Assembly: GCA_015233235.1 (NCBI GenBank) | Contig: JADFYD010000001.1 | Location: 1-43,890, forward strand | Origin: Candidatus Omnitrophota bacterium | Lineage (GTDB): Bacteria; Omnitrophota; Gorgyraeia; Tantalellales; Tantalellaceae | DNA length: 43,890 nt | Direction: 5' to 3' | In this document: positions 9,371 to 9,893 of the stretch, piece by piece | Layout of the letters: every line of letters starts with the position of its first letter | Numbering within the stretch: position 1 is the first letter of the stretch | The notes under the pieces: generated by a model | The model's database searches: none | What the model saw: only the letters and a program-made list of their open reading frames with translations | What the model was told of the DNA's origin: nothing | Translations under genes and position numbers: made by a program

Positions 9371-9502
9371 ACCTCAGATAATGATACCATAAATGTATCA
9401 TTAGTCAAATGTTTTCTTCTTTGAAATCGTAAAGTTTACGTGATTTTGGTGTTTGCAAATTCGGCGTGACGTTTTAAGAGATTAGAAGTTAGAGATATGA
9501 CC

Positions 9503-9560
9503 GCATTAGAAATTCGAGATATTCCGACTAATCTAATATCTAATCTCGAATTTCTAATGC
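9503..9560. repeat. 18-bp perfect inverted repeat (gcattagaaattcgagat / atctcgaatttctaatgc) with 22-nt loop
   Basis: Direct base comparison 9503-9520 vs 9543-9560; embedded in attaga/gagat-rich word repeats. Confidence 0.9.
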
Positions 9561-9564
9561 TCTA

Positions 9565-9617
9565 CCAAAATAAAAAAGCCTTCAGACATCTTGAGCGTGA
9601 AGGCTTTTTTATTTTGG
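9565..9617. terminator. Strong bidirectional terminator hairpin (20-bp perfect arms with A/T tracts)
   Basis: ccaaaataaaaaagccttca (9565-9584) / tgaaggcttttttattttgg (9598-9617). Confidence 0.9.
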
Positions 9618-9820
9618 TGGAGCTAAGGGGAATCGGCGCCTCCGTCCCGCCTTGCATATTTTTGGCTTCACCTACGTTCGCCAAAAATATGGCGGGACTC
9701 CGGTCGGCCACCCGCCGCCTCAGTTGATAGGAACTGCTCCCTAAGGTCGCAGTTCCCTGTATAAGGCTCGGCGGCTCCCTTCGATTCCCCTTCTGATGAT
9801 GCGTGTAAACAGATAGTCAG
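9618..9820. mobile_element. Candidate 203-bp non-coding insertion at the tRNA-Ala 3' end, with nested hairpins
   Basis: 19-bp direct repeat gtggagctaaggggaatcg at 9617-9635 and 9820-9838; outer IR aaggggaatcg 9625-9635 / cgattcccctt 9782-9792; inner hairpins 9644-9666/9680-9698 and 9730-9737/9749-9756. Confidence 0.6.
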
Positions 9821-9893
9821 TGGAGCTAAGGGGAATCGAACCCCTAACCTCCTGATTGCGAACCAGGCGCTCTGCCAATTGAGCTACAGCCCC
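9821..9893 (-). tRNA. tRNA-Ala, anticodon CGC; no encoded CCA at this copy
   Basis: Minus strand folds as GGGGCTG TA GCTC AATTGGCA GAGC G CCTGG TTCGCAA TCAGG AGGTT AGGGG TTCGATT CCCCT TAGCTCC A; 73 nt; contains G3:U70, the tRNA-Ala identity pair. Confidence 0.95.

Follow-up and report, generated by a model that had tools for sequence, protein, structure and literature searches.

A probable family of very small non-coding mobile elements in the T-loops of tRNA genes of Omnitrophota

The tRNA-Ala locus

The window, that is the whole stretch of 43,890 nucleotides that was analysed, contains a single tRNA-Ala(CGC) gene on its minus strand at 9893-9821 (ARAGORN; Rfam RF00005, 67.7 bits). A 19-bp direct repeat with the plus-strand sequence gtggagctaaggggaatcg is found at 9617-9635 and again at 9820-9838, the starts of the two copies being 203 bp apart. 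Read on the minus strand this repeat corresponds to C56 to A73 of tRNA-Ala plus C74. The distal copy leads into CCA-AAATAAAAAAGCC and a terminator hairpin at 9565-9617, and the proximal copy leads into C-T-G, with no CCA encoded for tRNA-Ala. The first-pass annotation had described the repeat, the distal CCA and terminator and the proximal CTG in the same way, and the sequence confirms this description. The identity of the two copies breaks off exactly at C56 of the T-loop: GGAGGCGC stands before the distal copy as against ..GGTT in the tRNA. The features of the tRNA and of its displaced end are the following.

9821-9893, minus strand: intact tRNA-Ala(CGC), positions 1-73 (ARAGORN, Rfam; T54 = 9840, C56 = 9838, A73 = 9821)
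9820-9838, minus strand: proximal copy of the 19-bp repeat, C56-C74 (sequence)
9617-9635, minus strand: distal copy of the repeat, the displaced tRNA 3′ half, C56-C74 (sequence)
9615-9617, minus strand: encoded CCA, now apart from the tRNA (sequence)
9565-9617, minus strand: terminator-like hairpin of the displaced tRNA end (inverted repeat CCAAAATAAAAAAGCCTTC..GAAGGCTTTTTTATTTTGG)

A terminator hairpin of similar style is also present 3′ of tRNAs that have no element (L048). An AT-rich repeat, attagaaattcgagattag.., lies at 9484-9564 of the window and forms an inverted repeat whose end reads gcattag..aatgctct. In the genome of the window this repeat is found 3′ of the terminators of several tRNAs with or without the element, with further sites in L029 (380-470), L030 (minus strand, 900-815) and L048.

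The sequence between the two repeat copies is hairpin-rich and folds (as DNA) with z = -6.3, none of 200 shuffled sequences folding equally well. By comparison with other copies it can be divided into the following parts.

9793-9819, minus strand: trailer or filler between the proximal repeat and the element, with no homologue in other copies (copy comparison)
9780-9792, minus strand: antisense segment AAGGGGAATCGAA, a perfect complement of T54-T66 of tRNA-Ala (9828-9840) and of the distal copy
9636-9779, minus strand: structured core GGGAGCCGCC..GGAGGCGC (covariance model R1, covariation, fold z -6.3)
9770-9775, minus strand: 5′ strand of helix P_b, GCCGCC, partner of 9714-9719 (covariation)
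9730-9756, minus strand: hairpin P_c with arms 9749-9756 and 9730-9737 (inverted repeat; covarying hairpin in relatives)
9714-9719, minus strand: 3′ strand of helix P_b, GGCGGC (covariation)
9698-9713, minus strand: most conserved segment GGGTGGCCGACCGGAG (invariant columns in alignments A1 and A2)
9644-9698, minus strand: long hairpin P_d, of variable sequence and length (covariation; tiny loop in minimal relatives, L277)
9636-9643, minus strand: right end GGAGGCGC, abutting C56 of the distal tRNA copy (junction common to nearly all copies)

The insert initially delimited as 9636-9819 is real, but the mobile unit comprises only the 157 non-coding bases 9636-9792, and 9793-9819 is trailer or filler. 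The inverted copy of the T-loop and the 3′ strand of the T-stem at 9780-9792 had previously gone unnoticed.

Copies of the element in other genomes

We looked for copies at other tRNA 3′ ends and found them in the genome of the window, in its family and throughout the phylum. The draft genome of the window itself contains diverged copies of the insert (82% identity over 166 bp, E 3e-38; 75%, E 9e-21), which adjoin tRNA-Leu(CAG), tRNA-Lys and tRNA-Ser, and the layout is nearly uniform among the stretches from this and related genomes, which lie beside different tRNAs. With a covariance model of 90 positions of the element core (R1) we obtained 35 matches in 9 of the 19 genomes of the family and matches in 52 of the 384 genomes of the phylum Omnitrophota; among the matches listed the named relatives with the element are Candidatus Omnitrophota. 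Altogether the family uses about 20 tRNA isotypes. For 70 of the 80 phylum matches that were read out a tRNA on the same strand is located 13-221 nt upstream. The remaining ten are mostly at contig ends or N-gaps, where a partial tRNA is visible at several, and true exceptions without a tRNA are L206, which repeats the stretch of L244 minus the tRNA, and L240. In L294 (about 1455-1530) the element stands behind a T-arm with CCA (GGGGTTCAACTCCCCTCAGGTCCACCA) which resembles the 3′ end of a tmRNA and is recognised neither by ARAGORN nor by Rfam.

One more true match, the fifth, consists of two units in tandem behind tRNA-Leu at 5777-6200 of L163 (JAKJFK010000013.1). This is a metagenome bin labelled candidate division TA06, which is by name outside Omnitrophota, and therefore the family may reach beyond the phylum or the bin may be mislabelled. 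Using R1 under strict filters we obtained no match in 294 genomes of Planctomycetota, and in 248 genomes of Elusimicrobiota no true copy, only one weak match with no tRNA nearby. Viral contigs gave no match in scans for the exact 19-mer and for the paired motifs. At gathering thresholds tRNA was the only Rfam family matched, and a relaxed scan yielded weak sub-threshold matches. A literature search of open-licence papers retrieved no description of the element, and the family is apparently so far undescribed.

Layout, junctions and duplication

In the direction of the tRNA the order is tRNA, trailer, which frequently includes a terminator, antisense segment of about 12 nt, core, and then C56 with the tRNA 3′ half. 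Across the copies the core follows the plan GGGAGC..GGGTGGCCGACCGGAG..GGAGGCGC, and the right junction is ..GGCGC followed directly by C56 in nearly all of them. The duplication starting at C56 measures about 18-83 bp in single copies with an intact distal half and is longer where whole units sit in tandem (L273, L239, L163). It is never shorter than the tRNA end, which would fit selection for a working tRNA. The distal tRNA halves are frequently decayed. The ends of the element are unrelated to each other, and the sole terminal inverted match is that of the antisense segment to the flanking tRNA copy. Among the copies read we found no larger version with an open reading frame and no integrase or integrase remnant. 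At some tRNAs (L300, L310, L316, L275; genomes G349, G184, G291) a repeat CGAGCGCCC..GCGCTCGGCATTCCGCGGCTGCC..GGCAGCCGCTTCAGGAGC is present within the core or replaces it; this could be either one element nested in another or a second form of the family.

A partial tRNA copy downstream of a tRNA is also what a decayed tandem tRNA would leave behind, the distal copy being then the remnant of a second gene. In nearly every copy, however, the identity sets in at C56 with GGCGC in front of it, no remains of a decayed 5′ half are seen there, and relatives have empty sites. We side with the first-pass annotation, which argued against this reading, and consider its probability negligible.

Empty and filled sites

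We also looked for relatives with an empty site and found them in the congeneric genomes G349 and G184, which have the syntenic cluster Arg(TCG)-Lys(CTT)-Leu(TAG)-Gly(GCC) in common. Three of these genes, those of Arg, Leu and Gly, continue directly into their trailers in G349, whereas in G184 an element and a second 3′ half are present at each of the three. At the Arg and Gly genes of G184 the native trailer of the empty site corresponds to the sequence past the distal copy. At tRNA-Leu the right flank apparently rejoins native DNA at a GCCCA microhomology, and given this flank the resolution of the insertion appears not to be uniform. In a further genome (G387) two cores with 96% identity are located one at tRNA-Leu and the other at tRNA-Ser. 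Empty and filled sites in congeners imply insertion with duplication, and at the level of compared loci they show the family to be mobile. For the tRNA-Ala of the window itself we found no empty site, the empty sites being seen in relatives only.

We consider it highly probable, from the comparison of copies and sites, that the insert of the window belongs to a dispersed family of mobile elements which are very small, non-coding and non-autonomous and which insert into the T-loops of tRNA genes in the orientation of the tRNA. On insertion the sequence from C56 through the 3′ end is duplicated, so that a complete tRNA is kept upstream and the old 3′ half is displaced downstream together with CCA and terminator. 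In the window the duplication seems to have ended at C74, which would explain why tRNA-Ala was left without its CCA. Two earlier proposals are thus borne out, namely a short non-coding insertion that regenerates the tRNA and strands CCA and terminator, which the copies and empty sites support, and a miniature non-autonomous tRNA-targeting element, for which the copies at many tRNAs and the empty and filled sites of the congeners speak.

The antisense segment

Across the copies the antisense segment is complementary to positions 54-65 of the local tRNA. The mean match to the own tRNA is 6.7 of 9 positions compared with 4.8 in shuffles (maximum 5.1 in 2000 of them), and this score understates the match because some wrong tRNA assignments in clusters are included. 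The complementarity is strong at tRNA positions 54-62, declines at 63-66 and is near background from 67 onwards; the direct copy is conserved to about 80% or more up to position 73. In a few copies (L219, L039, L099) the antisense stretch is longer and extends as far as the CCA. We also considered whether the segment is a copy of the T-stem strand 49-53 and rejected this, as it complements 61-65 instead (17 versus 4). The pairing would span the T-loop and the 3′ strand of the T-stem and end where the acceptor stem starts, which suggests that a folded, tRNA-like target is recognised.

If the segment were a conserved guide, close cores would be expected at tRNAs with a common T-arm sequence. This was not seen (8% versus 9% background, with a few rows in which the tRNA within a cluster is wrongly assigned). 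Close cores are found at different tRNAs without a common T-arm sequence, and therefore the segment is probably re-specified at or after each move. This could happen by copying from the target, by selection for pairing or by correction of an imperfect palindrome.

Structure of the core

Four helices covary, namely P_a, in which the antisense segment pairs with the distal T-stem, and the helices P_b, P_c and P_d of the core; none of 500 shuffles reached the observed scores. For P_b, 401 of 492 cells are paired in 82 elements, compared with a mean of 280 and a maximum of 310 in shuffles. The minimal copies of G190, in which the second arm is shrunk to GGCCGACCGAAGGCGCC, show a predicted pairing P_e (GGC/GCC plus CC/GG) and indicate that P_d can be dispensed with. 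Copies that have ACCC have AGGG opposite (L229, L245). Fold score and covariation show that the element has the capacity to fold. Of the 26 triloops 15 are C(GNA)G, a type which is characteristic of stable DNA hairpins and found in some RNAs too. Because of this share we lean to single-stranded DNA as the active form.

Covarying structure, orientation along the tRNA and complementarity to the T-arm would also be expected of a functional RNA kept by the host or of a self-splicing intron at tRNA genes. Against this, the upstream tRNA is complete without splicing, the distal halves are often decayed, presence differs between congeners and Rfam gave no match, so that we judge this explanation to be very improbable. 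A group I intron in particular, with the antisense segment as its internal guide, was rejected in view of missing core motifs, the lack of an Rfam match and the complete upstream tRNA.

Candidate partner enzymes

Candidate partners were looked for in 26 carrier genomes and 26 non-carriers, the latter defined as genomes with no R1 match; these may hide variant copies, and the drafts are incomplete.

Integrases were the first-pass explanation. In such a reading a circle with a tRNA 3′ half would recombine at the T-loop with a tyrosine recombinase supplied in trans. The junction in the T-loop, which is one known crossover site of tRNA-targeting tyrosine integrases, the direct repeat of the tRNA 3′ end, the regenerated tRNA and the tandem units all agree with it, and XerC/D-like recombinases score in nearly all genomes. 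A circle would, however, bring the 3′ half of the donor and spoil other tRNAs, yet close cores at different tRNAs have locally matching halves. The duplication varies in length from its fixed start at C56, the copies have no integrase or remnant, and integron integrase exceeded the family cut-off in none of the 26 carriers and in 3 of the 26 non-carriers. Moreover, integrase elements carry one tRNA-specific attP, whereas here nearly all isotypes are targeted by one family and the antisense segment of each copy matches the local tRNA. Integration by attP/attB recombination could thus not be upheld, and we regard an integrase-mobilised mini-element as distinctly unlikely.

An IS200/IS605-like or REP-like element would be moved by a Y1 (HUH) transposase through single-strand transfer, with guide pairings at both ends. 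The guide-like antisense segment at the 5′ foot of the hairpin and the pairing of GGCCGACC with the 3′ end resemble the plan of IS608, in which GL/CL and GR/CR form the pairings between guide and cleavage site; in addition the triloops are of the DNA type and Y1_Tnp is common in these genomes. We found no association of Y1_Tnp with the element (21 of 26 carriers versus 20 of 26 non-carriers, in incomplete drafts), and the flanks of 20 Y1 genes lack the motifs and ends of the element, some having other repeats such as GGTCTGACCCC. IS200/IS605 insertion, unlike the insertions described here with their duplication from C56, produces no target duplication. This alternative is unlikely in our view.

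Several Y1/RAYT-like genes of other Omnitrophota (L340, L344, L345, L346, L349, L350) are flanked by GGGGTCAGRCC/GGYCTGACCCC or similar short repeats, seemingly the REP partners of these genes. G009 contains nine near-identical IS200-type TnpA genes, mostly at contig bases 76-441 (C503, C18, C124, C125, C253 and others), a recent expansion that breaks the assembly.

The precise right junction together with a variable duplication would also suit a target-primed retroelement, in which reverse transcription of the RNA would start at a nick in the T-loop and give a precise 3′ and a variable 5′ junction, and the structured core in tRNA orientation is transcript-like. Reverse transcriptases (RVT_1) are not enriched, however: 6 of the 26 carriers have one, as against 7 of the 26 non-carriers, and none was found in copy-rich carriers such as G184, G291, G355, G007 and G011. 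We consider a retroelement quite improbable.

Discussion

The preferred reading, insertion of a small structured element into tRNA T-loops, leaves room for a specific mechanism. The element may act as a folded single strand, whose antisense segment of about 12 nt would pair with the T-loop and the 3′ T-stem strand of the target. The 3′ end GGCGC, held by GGCCGACC via helix P_e, would thereby be set against C56, and a nuclease or transferase supplied in trans would join it to C56. Copying from the other side of the nick would generate the variable duplication, and the strand would then be joined to the 5′ side of the element. This scheme as a whole, a folded single strand with an antisense-positioned transfer of its 3′ end to C56 by an enzyme in trans, is tentative, and we would expect it to fail somewhat more readily than to hold. 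With slightly more confidence, though still short of an even chance, we propose that the family could represent a new class of mobile element, in which folded tRNA genes or tRNAs are recognised by a re-specified antisense segment of about 12 nt and the enzyme belongs to none of the known transposase, integrase or reverse transcriptase families. As the T-loop is common to all tRNAs, almost any tRNA gene could serve such an element as a safe site.

Integration at tRNA genes is a classic phenomenon, in which an integrating element is normally suited to a single tRNA. The tiny elements described here, all of one family, enter the T-loops of almost all tRNAs, leave the tRNA intact and bear a locally matched segment, which makes target choice by base pairing directly testable. 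The family points to a further mobilising activity in Omnitrophota, and would explain the partial tRNA copies in these genomes and, at least at the present locus, a missing CCA end. If the antisense-guided reading is true, a new class of mobile element would have to be added to those known.

Several known systems can be compared. Elements with tyrosine integrases (islands, IMEs, prophages) have the tRNA target, the direct repeat of the 3′ end and the working tRNA in common with the family, which differs in being 157 bp long and gene-free, in using nearly all isotypes, in its local antisense segment and in its variable duplication. IS200/IS605 and REP/RAYT elements are likewise short, hairpin-rich and non-coding with terminal pairings of the guide/cleavage type and DNA-type loops, whereas here the target is duplicated, the antisense segment of about 12 nt is tRNA-specific and the local Y1 genes bear other repeats. 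Integron cassettes (attC) resemble it in the capacity for single-strand folding, in an imperfect stem with its 3′ arm as junction and in tandem units, but the present unit is gene-free, its target is the tRNA T-loop and IntI over the cut-off was absent from the 26 carriers. MITEs are also short, dispersed and non-autonomous with target duplication; the present element lacks terminal inverted repeats proper to it, its duplication has no fixed length, and no parent transposase was found. Group I introns in tRNA genes share the target, and the antisense segment recalls their internal guide, but Rfam scans gave no intron core and the upstream tRNA is complete. Target-primed retroelements, finally, have the same precise 3′ and variable 5′ junctions, whereas the family described here has no association with reverse transcriptase.
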